From positions 1 through 64,000 of the forward strand of contig NZ_FXAY01000001.1 in the NCBI RefSeq assembly GCF_900177685.1: a DNA stretch of 64,000 nucleotides, in the 5' to 3' direction. Source of the stretch: Agreia pratensis. Lineage in GTDB: Bacteria; Actinomycetota; Actinomycetes; Actinomycetales; Microbacteriaceae. Shown piece by piece: positions 17,095 to 21,251 of this stretch. A program made the position numbers and the translations under genes. The notes beneath the pieces are model-generated. The model made no database searches, was not told the origin of the DNA, and saw only the letters and a list, made by a program, of their open reading frames with translations. Each line of letters opens with the position of its first letter. The stretch's first letter is position 1.

Positions 17095-17898
17095 ATGGAA
17101 TGGTGGAACGACTTCGCAGATTGGTTCTTTTCGAGCAACGGACGCTTCGTCGTGTCCGGGATCGTGCTCCCCGCAGCAGCGATCATCGTGGCCGCGATCC
17201 TCGGCGCATGGATCGCGAGTGGCTCGATCAAGCGACTTCTGGCCAAGCACGATCGCGAGCTCAAGGTGGCCGCGATCGCATCTCTGATCGACGCCGCTCA
17301 GCAGGCGTCGGTGTGGAACTCGCTGACGCCGCAGGAGCAGATCATGTCCGACCGCGCCGTGGGTCAGGCTGACATCCAGATCCGTCTGCTTCCGATCAAG
17401 GGCGCCGCAGTTGCGGCAGACTGGGCCGCGCACTCGCTCGCCGACATGCGCCGCAACTCAGCAACCTTCGGCTACCAGGTCGAGCCCGCGGTCATCGAAT
17501 TCCGCGACCGTCTCATCGAGTGGCAGGAACGACCGGGCCGCAGCCGCAAGACCTTCCAGTCAGAGCTCGACCGATGGAGTGTCGAAGACGAGGATGCCGA
17601 GAAGCACCTCGCCAGACAGCAAGAGGCATGGGTCGCCCAACAACATCACGAGCAGCACAGCCGCCCGGAGATCGAGGCGACGACCGTCATCACGCCCACC
17701 ACGCCTCAGACGCCGTCGACAACCGCCACCGCATCGTCGCCTGCCGAGACGCCCGAACAGCGGGCGGCTCGCGAAGAGACCAAGCGCGTCCTCGAGAACG
17801 TGAACGCTGTCGAACGCCACCGTGAGTCATCCGTCGGAGGCGAGACCCCGCCTCCGATCAACGCGTTCCCGCCGCGTCGCGCATCCGACAACGACTGA
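17095..17898 (+). CDS. Hypothetical membrane-anchored protein, 267 aa
   Basis: Not recognised. One hydrophobic helix lies at about residues 18-42 (FVVSGIVLPAAAIIVAAILGAWIA), with the preceding Trp/Phe-rich N-terminus likely at the membrane face. The central region (45-170) is helical and charged, with heptad-like patterns suggesting coiled coil (KRLLAKHDRELKVAAIASLIDAAQQA; ERPGRSRKTFQSELDRW). The last ~90 residues are Thr/Pro/Glu-rich and probably disordered. No enzymatic motif is seen. Orientation would place the helical part in the cytoplasm if the N-terminus is outside. Leaderless promoter; convergent with the redox operon, whose stop is 22 nt away. Confidence 0.72.
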   Translation: MEWWNDFADWFFSSNGRFVVSGIVLPAAAIIVAAILGAWIASGSIKRLLAKHDRELKVAAIASLIDAAQQASVWNSLTPQEQIMSDRAVGQADIQIRLLPIKGAAVAADWAAHSLADMRRNSATFGYQVEPAVIEFRDRLIEWQERPGRSRKTFQSELDRWSVEDEDAEKHLARQQEAWVAQQHHEQHSRPEIEATTVITPTTPQTPSTTATASSPAETPEQRAAREETKRVLENVNAVERHRESSVGGETPPPINAFPPRRASDND

Positions 17899-17919
17899 CG
17901 CTGTCGCGCACGACTCCGA

Positions 17920-19425
17920 TCAGTAACCCGAGAAGGCGTCGGTGACGACTCGGCGCACCCGTAGGCGCTTGAGCTCTGAGCGGGCCGCTCCCACCAGGCG
18001 CGGAGGCCCTGACACGAAGGCCGTCCTCTGCCGAACGTCAGGAACATGCCGCTCGATGATGTCACCCGTCAGACGACCCGAGCCGGCGTAGCTCCACCCC
18101 TCGGGCAGGTGCTCCGGCGCTGAGGGGGCAAGAAGCACGACACGGATTCCCATCTTCTTCAACTCGTCGGCGTAGGCGAACTCTTCCTGGCCTCGGATGG
18201 CGTAGACGAGAACCAGGTCGCGTTGAGCACCCGCGGTCGCGTCGTGCTGGAGCTGGCTGATGAAGGGCGTGATCCCGATTCCTCCCGCGACGAGCAGCAC
18301 AGGCCGCTTCGTGTCCGACGGGAGCAAGAAGTCTCCGGCGACGAGGTTCGCCCGCACCGTCTGCGACGGCTTCAGCGAGGCGAGAGCCCGCTTGAAGCTC
18401 GAGGTCGATTCGCCCATGCGCACACCGAAGCGCACCTCGTGAGGGTTGCTGGGCGCCGACGCAATGCTGAAGACGCGCCGGGTTCCAGACGAGTCGGCAC
18501 CGGAATGAGGGATCGACAGTTCCATGTACTGCCCCGCCCGGAACGAGACGGGGTGCTTCGTCTGGAAGACGAACTCCGTCATCGATGGCGTCAGAGCGAC
18601 CGAACGCTCGAACGAGAGCGACAGACCACGACGCTGACCCACGAGGAATGCCAGGAGGTTGCCCACGACGAGAGCGAGTTCCGGGCTTCCGTGCAGCGGA
18701 CCGGCCGAGAAGGGGATCGAGAAGAGCAACGCCACGATGGCGGCGAGCGCGATTCGCTGCCAGAGGCGCGGCGGCAGGGTGAGCGGCTCGCTCAGCATAA
18801 AGCCGGCGAGGAAGATCAAAGGCGTGGATCCGAGCGCATAGACGAGCGCATCGGGCACCGTGAGTCCGAACGACGATTGCACGATGGTGACGACGACCGT
18901 GGCGAGCACGATGAACGTGAGCCCCATGGGCAGCTGGCGGGTTCGGTAGAGCACGAGCAGCGCACCGACGGCGACGACGGGCAGCAGCACCGGTGTGCCG
19001 ACCCACCAGACGGATGCGTTGAGTCCGGTGAGCGTGATGATCACGGCGCCGACCGCGGCCGGGTTGAAGATGTGGCGACGCCTCCAGGCGAGCACGTATT
19101 TCGAGGCGACTGCTATGGCGGAGACGAGGGCGATCGACAACAGGTCGTTGCCGTCGGTTGTCGGAAAGAACAGGAAGAACAGCAGGAGCGCGGTGATGAT
19201 CGATGACTCCGTGTGCGGTCTCACACGGAAGAGCAGGGCCATGACCCGGTTGGCCACCACGCAGGAGACCAGCACGGTGGCCAGCGTGGCGAGCAGTGCG
19301 AGGGGCGGAAACCCGAGCACGCCCACAAGACTCTCGACGATCGCCACGACAGCGATCGCCGCCAGCACGAGGCTGACGAGCCGGTACATCTGAAGCTTGC
19401 CCAGCAGGGCATCAAGTCGAGCCAT
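17920..19425 (-). CDS. RnfD/NqrB-like membrane domain fused to ferredoxin:NAD(P)H reductase domain
   Basis: A 501-residue fusion. Residues ~1-250 form a polytopic membrane region with about eight to nine hydrophobic helices similar to RnfD/NqrB subunits, including the conserved loop HIFNPAAVGAVI. Residues ~265-501 are a ferredoxin-NADP reductase module: FAD-binding RVFSIASAP, the NAD(P)H phosphate-binding LLVAGGIGITPFISQL and the C-terminal FVSGPPRLV. The ATG overlaps the apbE stop (TGATG), so translation is coupled. Inferred role: move electrons from NAD(P)H through FAD and membrane flavin to the extracytoplasmic FMN protein encoded two genes upstream. There is no Fe-S motif. Confidence 0.88.
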   Translation of the reverse strand: MARLDALLGKLQMYRLVSLVLAAIAVVAIVESLVGVLGFPPLALLATLATVLVSCVVANRVMALLFRVRPHTESSIITALLLFFLFFPTTDGNDLLSIALVSAIAVASKYVLAWRRRHIFNPAAVGAVIITLTGLNASVWWVGTPVLLPVVAVGALLVLYRTRQLPMGLTFIVLATVVVTIVQSSFGLTVPDALVYALGSTPLIFLAGFMLSEPLTLPPRLWQRIALAAIVALLFSIPFSAGPLHGSPELALVVGNLLAFLVGQRRGLSLSFERSVALTPSMTEFVFQTKHPVSFRAGQYMELSIPHSGADSSGTRRVFSIASAPSNPHEVRFGVRMGESTSSFKRALASLKPSQTVRANLVAGDFLLPSDTKRPVLLVAGGIGITPFISQLQHDATAGAQRDLVLVYAIRGQEEFAYADELKKMGIRVVLLAPSAPEHLPEGWSYAGSGRLTGDIIERHVPDVRQRTAFVSGPPRLVGAARSELKRLRVRRVVTDAFSGY

Positions 19426-20285
19426 CAGGAGAAGACCTCTCCCCGCAGTGTGCGGGATCGTTCGGCGATGCCGGAGGAGTGCATGCGCACCCAATCGAAT
19501 TCGAAATGCTCGGCGAGCCGCGCGGGCTGCACGAAGAACAGGGCGGTGGCAAGCCCATCCGCCAGAAGGCCGGTGGGCGCGATGGCCCAGGTCGCAATGA
19601 TGTCGGAGGTCGGCGAGCCAGTGCGTCCGTCGAGAATGTGATGCAACCCCGCCCCCCACACCCGGCGATTCGATCCGGATGCGCAGAGCGACTCGTTCTC
19701 GATCGTCACGACCCCGATCGCCTTGCTGGGGTCGAACGGATGCTCGAGCCCGACCCGTAGGGGCTCTCCCCTGGTCACCAGATCGCCACTGGCGTCGATG
19801 ACGAAGTCGGTGATGCCCGACTCCCTGAGGACCTCGGCCACAAGGTCGACGAGATAGCCCTTCCCAGCCGCACCGACGTCGATGACGGTCGGTTCCGTCG
19901 TCGTGACGGTGGCGCCGTTCCGGCTTACCGCCTCCGCCCATTTGGTCGGCACGACTCGGCCAGCCTGAGCGGTGAGGCTGTAGCGACTGTCGTAGCCGAG
20001 GTGCTCGAGGGAGCGGCCCACCAGCGGTGTGACCGCTCCCCCGCTGATCTCGTCGAGCCTGTCGTAGAGATCGAAGAGATCGATCGAATCGGCAGGAAAT
20101 TCAACCGATCCGGGCTCTCGTGCGAGAGATGACACCAAGGAGTCGGATCGGAATCGGGAGTACGCGCGATCGAACTCCTCTACCCGGCCTCGCACTCGCT
20201 CGGCGACCGCCTCGGGGAGGTCGCCGTCGGTGTCGATCTGCCAGGTCGTTCCGATACCGGTGAAACGGAGACTAGACGCCGGCAT
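19425..20285 (-). CDS. apbE: FAD:protein FMN transferase ApbE
   Basis: A 286-residue ApbE. This Mg-dependent enzyme transfers FMN from FAD onto a Ser/Thr of target proteins such as RnfG/NqrC-type domains, on the outer face of the membrane. Seen are GTTWQID near the N-terminus, the ISGGAVTPLVG segment, VIDVGAAGKGYLVD (Mg/FAD loop), ASGDLVTRG, and the C-terminal LADGLATALFF. It carries no evident signal peptide, unlike many Gram-negative ApbE proteins. The ATG at 20283-20285 lies 11 nt inside the 3' end of the FMN-binding gene (14-nt overlap), and the stop overlaps the next start, so the three genes form one tightly coupled operon. Confidence 0.93.
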   Translation of the reverse strand: MPASSLRFTGIGTTWQIDTDGDLPEAVAERVRGRVEEFDRAYSRFRSDSLVSSLAREPGSVEFPADSIDLFDLYDRLDEISGGAVTPLVGRSLEHLGYDSRYSLTAQAGRVVPTKWAEAVSRNGATVTTTEPTVIDVGAAGKGYLVDLVAEVLRESGITDFVIDASGDLVTRGEPLRVGLEHPFDPSKAIGVVTIENESLCASGSNRRVWGAGLHHILDGRTGSPTSDIIATWAIAPTGLLADGLATALFFVQPARLAEHFEFDWVRMHSSGIAERSRTLRGEVFS

Positions 20286-20745
20286 CGGCCTTGATCTTGT
20301 CGACGGCATCGTTGAAGCCACCGCTGGTCAGCGACGAACCGGCCACCTTCGAGACTTTGAGGTCGTTGAGGCTCTTGCCCACGACCTCGGCGGCGATGCC
20401 ATCGGCGAACTCGCCCTGGTACTTCTTGCCGTTGGGGTTTGTCGATTCGGGAGTGACCGTGACGGCCGTGACCTTGTCTCCGGCGAGTGTCAGCGAGACG
20501 CCGACGGTCTCTTTTCCGCCGGGAGAGGTGTATTCGCCTTCAGCTTTGTACTCTCCGTCCTTGTAGGCGGACGATCCGGCGGGGGCGGAGGTGGAGGGCG
20601 CGGCGTCGCTGGTGCTCTCGAGAGACGCACCGGGAGTGCTGCCGGAGTCAGATGATCCTGCTCCGGTGGAGCAGCCGGTGACGACTCCGAGAAGCGAGAG
20701 GCCGGCGAGGGCGGTGACGGCAGTTTTCTGGTGGCGGGTGATCAT
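20272..20745 (-). CDS. FMN-binding domain lipoprotein
   Basis: A 157-residue exported lipoprotein. The ATG at 20743-20745 has GGAGAG 4 nt upstream. A signal peptide with the lipobox VVTGC puts Cys25 as the lipid anchor. A Ser/Thr/Gly-rich spacer (26-60) leads to an FMN-binding domain (about 62-157) with DGEYKAEGEYTSPGG, the KYQGEFADGIAAEVVGK helix and the flavinylation-site-like SSLTS, Thr140 being the likely acceptor modified by ApbE. Role inferred: extracytoplasmic covalently flavinylated electron carrier. First gene of the apbE/RnfD-FNR operon; an inverted repeat sits just upstream. Confidence 0.93.
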   Translation of the reverse strand: MITRHQKTAVTALAGLSLLGVVTGCSTGAGSSDSGSTPGASLESTSDAAPSTSAPAGSSAYKDGEYKAEGEYTSPGGKETVGVSLTLAGDKVTAVTVTPESTNPNGKKYQGEFADGIAAEVVGKSLNDLKVSKVAGSSLTSGGFNDAVDKIKADAGV

Positions 20746-20767
20746 GGTTCTCTCCATCAGTCGGGAT

Positions 20768-20789
20768 GCGTACTGGCAAGTTAGTACGC
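20768..20789. promoter_or_regulatory. Inverted repeat upstream of flavin operon, candidate operator
   Basis: GCGTACT (20768-20774) and AGTACGC (20783-20789) are perfect inverted 7-mers separated by 8 nt, 23 nt upstream of the FMN-lipoprotein start codon. The dyad has typical repressor-operator geometry; the binding protein is unknown. Confidence 0.45.
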
Positions 20790-20910
20790 CTACGACCATA
20801 GGGGCGTCACTGCTGCAAGTACTTGGGAGGAACTGTGGAAACACTGAGAATAGTTGAAGCGACAACTAATGAGGGCTTCTCATTGTCATTCGACACGAAC
20901 CGTAGTGCAG

Positions 20911-20983
20911 TGCCCCCGGTAGGAATCGAACCTACGACCAAGAGATTAGAAGGCTCTTGCTCTATCCACTGAGCTACGGAGGC
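20911..20983 (-). tRNA. tRNA-Arg (anticodon TCT)
   Basis: A 73-nt cloverleaf read on the minus strand from 20983. Acceptor stem GCCTCCG/CGGGGGC contains one G-U pair, the D arm is GCTC-GAGC, the anticodon loop CTTCTAA reads AGA codons, and the T arm contains GGTTCGATTCC. The base pair next to the anticodon loop (31-39) is a C-U mismatch; the remaining stem pairs well. CCA is not encoded. Confidence 0.96.
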
Positions 20984-21023
20984 GTTCGCCCCGCTTACCG
21001 CGAGGCGCTTCTACGATAGCGCG

Positions 21024-21251
21024 TCAGAGAGAAACGAGCGCGATGACCGCCACCACGAGCGACACTGCGGCGAGAAGCAACGAGACGCCGATGAGCACGG
21101 CGTGCACGATGAGGAACGTCGTGGCCTTGCCCGACGTGTCTCGCGCCCGCGGGTCTTTGCTGACGCGCTTGTAGAAGCGCGGCCAGATGAGAGCGTTCCA
21201 GAGCGCGTTGACGAGAAGGAGTATTGCGAGCGTGATGATCATCGCGTCCAT
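21024..21251 (-). CDS. Small membrane protein, SCO4848-like, 75 aa
   Basis: A 75-residue protein with two hydrophobic helices ([19 protein letters not shown] near the N-terminus and [27 protein letters not shown] at the C-terminus) and a basic loop between them ([20 protein letters not shown]). The loop motif and two-helix layout resemble the SCO4848 family of small actinobacterial membrane proteins, whose function is unknown. The ATG at 21249-21251 is preceded by GTAGG; the next in-frame ATG at 21240-21242 is also possible. It diverges from orn. Confidence 0.78.

Follow-up and report, generated by a model that had tools for sequence, protein, structure and literature searches.

A stretch of 64,000 nucleotides from Agreia pratensis (contig NZ_FXAY01000001.1, positions 1 to 64,000), called the window below, carries on its minus strand three overlapping genes, encoding a lipoprotein, an ApbE and a membrane protein fused to an FNR-type reductase. 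This operon quite probably encodes a minimal conduit that would pass electrons one way, from NAD(P)H (reduced nicotinamide adenine dinucleotide or its phosphate) to an extracytoplasmic flavin, flavin mononucleotide (FMN) attached by ApbE. The operon belongs, as a divergent member, to the Nqr/Rnf-like flavinylation systems, a published class (Meheust et al. 2021, PMC8238504; preprint PMC10979944, also listed as PMC11334425, mSystems 2024) in which this architecture is already described, and is not a new arrangement. The features worth testing are a non-canonical acceptor motif in the lipoprotein and an ApbE lacking an export leader. The operon features are listed here; FAD stands for flavin adenine dinucleotide.

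20272-20745, minus strand: FMN_bind-type lipoprotein, 157 aa (open reading frame and marginal Pfam FMN_bind match)
20671-20745, minus strand: signal peptide ending at lipobox Cys25, without twin arginine (read from sequence and hydrophobicity)
20323-20343, minus strand: flavinylation-like motif A135-G-S-S138-L-T140-S; predicted acceptor Ser138, codon 20334-20332 (alignment to SGAT/TGAT)
19425-20285, minus strand: ApbE (FAD:protein FMN transferase), 286 aa (Pfam ApbE, E 2.6e-42)
17920-19425, minus strand: membrane-FNR fusion protein, 501 aa (open reading frame)
18640-19425, minus strand: NqrB/RnfD-like membrane domain, about ten transmembrane helices, HIFNPA and GFMLSEPLT motifs (hhalign against an RnfD alignment)
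18994-18996, minus strand: Thr144 in outer loop 5-6, closest equivalent to the flavinylated RnfD Thr (alignment column)
17920-18603, minus strand: predicted cytosolic FAD/NAD(P)H reductase domain of FNR type, RRVFS and GGIGITP motifs (PF00175)

The operon, the fusion protein and class membership

An earlier sequence-only reading of this DNA had proposed a three-gene overlapping operon, and its gene set, order and overlaps are all present as described. The apbE ATG lies within the 3' end of the lipoprotein gene, with 14 nt common to both genes, and the ATG of the fusion gene overlaps the ApbE stop codon by a single base (TGATG); the frame beginning there does join an RnfD-like domain to an FAD/NAD(P)H reductase. 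The Agreia pratensis genome searched (3.58 Mb, 99.88% complete) gave no Pfam match to PF03116 (RnfD/NqrB) or PF02508 (RnfA/E, NqrD/E), in agreement with the earlier claim that Rnf/Nqr partners are missing; RnfB, RnfC, NqrA and NqrF were not searched for. The operon ApbE was the sole PF02424 match, with no second ApbE in the genome.

The membrane part was recognised by profile comparison. A profile of 23 fusion homologues matched an alignment in which E. coli RsxD was combined with 14 RnfD proteins from the phylum (hhalign probability 91.9, E 7.1e-7, 236 columns), and the match spans HIFNPA and GFMLSEPLT/GAFFMATD. Lysine and arginine are confined to the inside loops (helix borders set by eye), which is consistent with ten helices and a cytosolic N- and C-terminus. 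The sequence-only reading had pointed to the membrane flavin carried by RnfD/NqrB, but the fusion lacks the covalent-flavin site of those proteins. The RnfD stretch with the flavinylated Thr, which we take to be the Thr of SQATPL in RsxD, is missing from the fusion in the alignment. Of the 23 homologues, 17 have Thr in the Thr144 column, three Asn, two Ser and one Ala, and none has [ST]GA[ST] within its membrane part. Thr144 was rejected as a covalent FMN site because the residue is not conserved.

In the available text of PMC8238504, an Nqr/Rnf-like system is defined by a gene for ApbE (PF02424) and/or FMN_bind (PF04205) at E 0.001, a signal peptide or lipidation site in a target gene, and a membrane protein with N-terminal PF03116 and C-terminal PF00175; that of PMC10979944 describes loss of the NqrB/RnfD flavinylation site and a one-way model. 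The Agreia operon has an ApbE at 145.6 bits (E 2.6e-42), an FMN_bind match at E 6.4e-4, a lipoprotein leader with Cys25, a PF00175 (NAD_binding_1) match of 39.4 bits against a cut-off of 22 in the C-terminal domain of the fusion, and no conserved flavinylation Thr in the fusion. It thus shares with the class an FMN_bind protein, an ApbE, an NqrB/RnfD-like domain fused to PF00175 and the lost membrane flavin site, but differs from it in a membrane domain missed by PF03116 and in the acceptor AGSS instead of SGAT. The reductase fusion, which the sequence-only reading had thought notable, is the same arrangement already given for the class in the available text of both papers. With RNF and Na+-NQR the operon has in common a homologous membrane domain (RnfD/NqrB) and an FMN_bind-type partner (RnfG/NqrC). 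PF02508 together with canonical PF03116, the mark of those complexes, had no match in the genome; the membrane subunit is also without the covalent-flavin Thr loop, and has the reductase fused on.

The operon is conserved well beyond Agreia pratensis. A fusion homologue with the membrane part was found in 23 of 60 genomes searched: its own, six of the seven others in the genus, 14 from the rest of the family (G016 among them, only from residue 41 on) and two in the order (the named Agreia relatives, L031-L035, each counted once). A class-wide draw gave at least 19 of 296 genomes with a membrane-containing fusion, its own included and two more already counted; 19 is a lower bound, as matches occurred in 262 genomes and at most five candidates were scored per genome. 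Most of the remaining matches in both searches were to the reductase domain alone. The lipoprotein gene stands just upstream in all 22 other fetched loci, with apbE between in 21, which is more than chance would give; the outcome that the sequence-only reading had named as refuting it, domains never adjacent in other genomes, did not occur. The one locus without apbE between (L050, genome G023) belongs to a genome with a lone operon-type ApbE elsewhere (L110, C2:1038526-1039269), which scored 351.8 bits against the profile of operon ApbEs, compared with 61-114 bits for the remaining 29 of the best-scoring ApbE loci in Microbacteriaceae. Among 16 further class-level loci apbE was found in all and the lipoprotein gene in 14; it was not found at L124 and L126 in the 1.5 kb flank examined.

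The close spacing is also kept. ApbE and fusion gene are -1 or -4 nt apart in 14 of 20 measurable loci, and the lipoprotein-ApbE spacing is -14 in the window, at five of the six loci from other Agreia and at two more loci, within a range of -41 to +70 over the 20 loci with a placeable ApbE start. These counts leave aside L050 and L043, the latter for its doubtful start. An apparent fusion of ApbE to the membrane protein at L043 (G016, a genome 86% complete and 5% contaminated) was dismissed, since a frameshift around residue 40 of the fusion gene produces the single frame; from this locus the fusion was aligned from residue 41 on and the lipoprotein was aligned too, while the ApbE was kept out of the ApbE alignment and entered in the leader test only. 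A low-scoring fusion homologue, one of the 19 from the class-wide draw (L134, G580 C16:33643-35139), covers query residues 10-500 with one internal TAA and is probably a decaying or mis-sequenced copy. Distant RnfD-like open reading frames of the phylum (L182-L187) match the membrane part of the fusion profile only.

Several results weigh against reading the operon as such a conduit. For the fusion, PF03116 gave no match in the window protein at E<=1, sequence relatives in the PDB were found for the reductase part and none for the membrane part, and the AlphaFold model was unusable (predicted local distance difference test score, pLDDT, under 50). The lipoprotein reached 20.8 bits against Pfam FMN_bind, under the curated cut-off of 22, and was not found by the whole-genome PF04205 search; NCBIfam assigned it no family, and among PDB sequences it had no relative with E<=1. 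Its profile matched the RnfG profile weakly (probability 9.4, E 0.0035), and a fold search of the PDB with its structure model, itself partial (mean pLDDT 62.3), gave nothing significant, the best hits being IscU-like and Azotobacter RnfG ranking ninth at E 0.14. The acceptor motif is without the usual Asp, first Ser/Thr and Ala, and a cytosolic ApbE is hard to square with a Sec-exported substrate. In favour of the homology of the membrane domain to RnfD, PF03116 did match three of the 23 fusion homologues at E<=1 (best E 1.2e-6); because it matches so few members, the published criterion of PF03116 plus PF00175 would overlook the window fusion. A class described from genome and model evidence, as far as the available text goes, is thereby extended to a branch mostly missed by its defining Pfam model. 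FMN_bind itself matched 14 of the 20 aligned lipoprotein homologues at E<=1 (best 6.8e-6); the assignment is marginal and draws mainly on marginal Pfam scores, the motif and the operon context.

In the electron path that we infer, NAD(P)H would be oxidised by the cytosolic FNR-type domain with FAD, electrons would cross the membrane by a non-covalent flavin in the ten-helix NqrB/RnfD-like domain, and outside they would be taken up by FMN on the lipid-anchored FMN_bind protein. From there they could pass to an acceptor whose gene is not close by; ferric iron, a quinone outside the cell or a reductase of the envelope are possibilities. The flanking genes do not allow the terminal acceptor to be read from context because, at the 18 loci compared, one of the 15 largest gene groups spans five loci and the others two or three. 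The minimal conduit of the sequence-only reading is retained as the best reading and matches the published class, with three details changed: there is no covalent-flavin site in the membrane subunit, Ser138 replaces Thr140 as predicted acceptor, and no signal peptide was seen on ApbE. The sequence itself shows the gene set with its order, overlaps and domains, the conservation, and the absence of an ApbE leader and of the RnfD flavin site; cofactors, direction of flow, acceptor residue, place of flavinylation and final acceptor are inferred.

ApbE and the side of the membrane

The operon ApbE is predicted to stay in the cytosol, but the lipoprotein presumed to be its substrate is exported, which would place enzyme and target on opposite sides of the membrane. 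A leader was called where a 12-residue hydrophobic window with a mean of at least 1.9 followed any plausible start. None of 39 operon-type ApbEs had one, the highest value being 1.53; the set comprised the window, 21 relatives, 16 class-level loci and L181, and L050 has no operon apbE. Among partner FMN_bind proteins the rule was positive in 25 of 38. Nine of the 13 negatives lay at 1.82-1.88 and four at 1.53, 1.49, 1.30 and -0.51, so the sensitivity of the rule is incomplete, and some starts among these negatives are doubtful. Control scans with a nearly identical rule, based on hidden Markov models and covering the best-scoring ApbE loci only, found a leader in 26 of 30 loci of a phylum-wide draw and in none of 30 Microbacteriaceae loci. 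L181, on an AT-richer contig (38% GC) from a distant genome of the phylum (provenance unconfirmed), repeats the gene order and combines a canonical motif with, once more, a leaderless ApbE; for this reason missing ApbE leaders may be common across the class.

That ApbE flavinylates the secreted lipoprotein, as the sequence-only reading had it, is kept here, but that wording concealed the topology problem posed by an ApbE without a signal peptide. In our reading ApbE would attach FMN, most likely at Ser138. Since the enzyme shows no export signal, attachment would probably take place in the cytosol, on the new pre-lipoprotein and before Sec export, and the translational coupling of the genes would favour cytosolic flavinylation. 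We put forward tentatively, for Microbacteriaceae, the full sequence of events, in which the cytosolic operon ApbE would place FMN on the nascent pre-lipoprotein at a specialised A-G-S-S near its C-terminus and threading through Sec and lipidation would follow. Export of a folded, pre-flavinylated lipoprotein by the twin-arginine translocation (Tat) pathway was rejected, as twin arginines occur in just one of 20 lipoprotein leaders (L045), where a Tat context is not evident.

An alternative that we regard as unlikely keeps the same conduit but has ApbE exported, either despite lacking a discernible signal peptide or carried along piggyback, to flavinylate the folded lipoprotein outside as the classical systems do. 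It is opposed by the absence of a hydrophobic leader from all 39 operon ApbEs, by the in-frame region upstream of ApbE, which at the 21 loci inspected runs into the lipoprotein gene or starts shortly after it, and by the abundance of FAD in the cytosol. In its favour, secretion seems to hold for most ApbEs of bacteria, and cytosolic expression failed to replace a periplasmic ApbE in an early growth test, both according to the available text of PMC12052999. The same text describes a Klebsiella ApbE that likewise has no signal peptide, but its substrate, a fumarate reductase, is a soluble cytosolic enzyme, whereas that in Agreia would be a lipoprotein. The accessible portions of the open-licence literature yielded nothing on a leaderless ApbE with an exported substrate, and no paper pairing flavinylation with Microbacteriaceae was found in that literature.

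If flavinylation does precede export, covalent flavin would be installed without any need to export FAD, and the same logic could extend to the other leaderless ApbEs of the family and to possible membrane substrates with C-terminal SGS tails. With the membrane apparently lying between enzyme and substrate, the place and time of extracytosolic flavin attachment become testable in this operon.

The predicted acceptor of the lipoprotein

The sequence-only reading had seen a flavinylation-like motif around Thr140. The motif is there, but Thr140 was rejected as the acceptor by alignment: it lies two residues beyond Ser138, and it is Ser138 that falls in the acceptor column, both against E. coli RsxG (TGAT) and against the L181 homologue, which has a canonical SGAT (DTVSGATNTS). 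Ser138 is thus the most likely residue for FMN attachment. G136-S-S-L-T140 is invariant in all 20 aligned homologues and in all 14 further class-level loci in which the gene was found. The alignment of 20 left out the near-identical Agreia copies L032, L033 and L035, whose motif reads identical. The flavinylation consensus in the available text of PMC12052999 is D-x-x-[S/T]-G-A-[S/T]; the lipoprotein motif, S-K-V-A-G-S-S, does not fit it and keeps only the Gly and the final Ser/Thr.

This deviation at several positions, together with the marginal recognition of FMN_bind and the preference of ApbE for Thr (PMC12052999, available text), would favour a lipoprotein without covalent flavin, binding FMN non-covalently or leaving ApbE to act on another protein, with AGSS as a relic. 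We consider this improbable, given the invariance of G-S-S-L-T in the two sets of loci and an ApbE that is co-encoded in 21 of 22 loci and is the only one of the genome.

The return leg of electrons in Nqr is reportedly carried by NqrB. It is very improbable that the fusion is instead a quinone- or iron-directed reductase to which the lipoprotein feeds electrons inward, for example from an extracellular donor: in Nqr, NADH does reduce the outer NqrC flavin, and the electrons end up on quinone at the cytosolic face (PMC10979944, available text), but here an FNR-type NAD(P)H domain is fused on and no donor enzyme is linked, the 15 largest flanking-gene groups spanning at most five of the 18 loci compared.

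Upstream elements and other ApbE loci

Three features were placed upstream of the operon.

20910-20983, minus strand: tRNA-Arg(tct), directly upstream of the operon and outside the system
20851-20868, minus strand: dyad TAGTTG-N6-CAACTA, probable operator (intact in 7/7 Agreia)
20768-20789, no strand: 7-bp perfect inverted repeat, present, not conserved

The palindrome at 20768-20789, which the sequence-only reading had pointed out, is present and perfect, but it is intact in only three of seven Agreia (the window, L032 and L033), and the same 301 bases contain two further repeats of this kind, imperfect ones of 9-10 nt; as an operator it is unsupported. The dyad at 20851-20868, missed by that reading, is likely an operator, to judge from its conservation. 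Its arms are kept where the spacer varies, as at L036, which has a different spacer and no tRNA ahead of the operon but still an intact dyad. It was not found in the 350 bases upstream at the other 16 loci. The genome has two exact copies of TAGTTG-N6-CAACTA. With one mismatch allowed there are four sites per strand against three for a reversed control pattern, and since the control gives nearly as many, these sites carry little meaning. The second exact copy (L115) coincides with the start of a gene predicted to encode a lipoprotein. One of the one-mismatch sites (L118, contig C8) immediately precedes a gene for a MarR-like regulator, a family recognised by eye; that a MarR-like protein regulates the dyad is a guess. 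In 17700-21100 a consensus promoter scan showed two terminator-like sites, neither of them 3' of the operon, and no sigma-70-like site.

The leaderless ApbEs at the other Microbacteriaceae loci (L085-L114) had no FMN_bind partner by the operon-type profile at any of 30 loci, and a search beside them for a canonical flavinylation motif gave no clear case. Most are preceded by a small protein, single-pass membrane by eye, with a long linker rich in Ser, Thr, Gly, Pro and Ala, the C-terminus of which resembles a cut-down flavinylation motif (TSSGS, ATTSGS, NTGAS and similar). A loose tail pattern matched at 22 of 29 loci with an upstream open reading frame, where the frame was chosen for low complexity and the pattern was set after viewing the tails, without a chance control. 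It is possible, from these tails, that the linker proteins are ApbE substrates lacking FMN_bind. Of five regions fetched, two were scanned with Pfam, and both contained a Ferric_reduct-NAD_binding-Fer2 (MsrQ-like) protein nearby. The MsrQ-like flavinylation systems of Actinobacteria, in the available text of PMC8238504, resemble the Agreia operon in a membrane protein that is often NAD-binding-fused and has ApbE nearby, but their membrane domain is of the haem-binding Ferric_reduct type, found here beside these other ApbEs and outside the Agreia operon.

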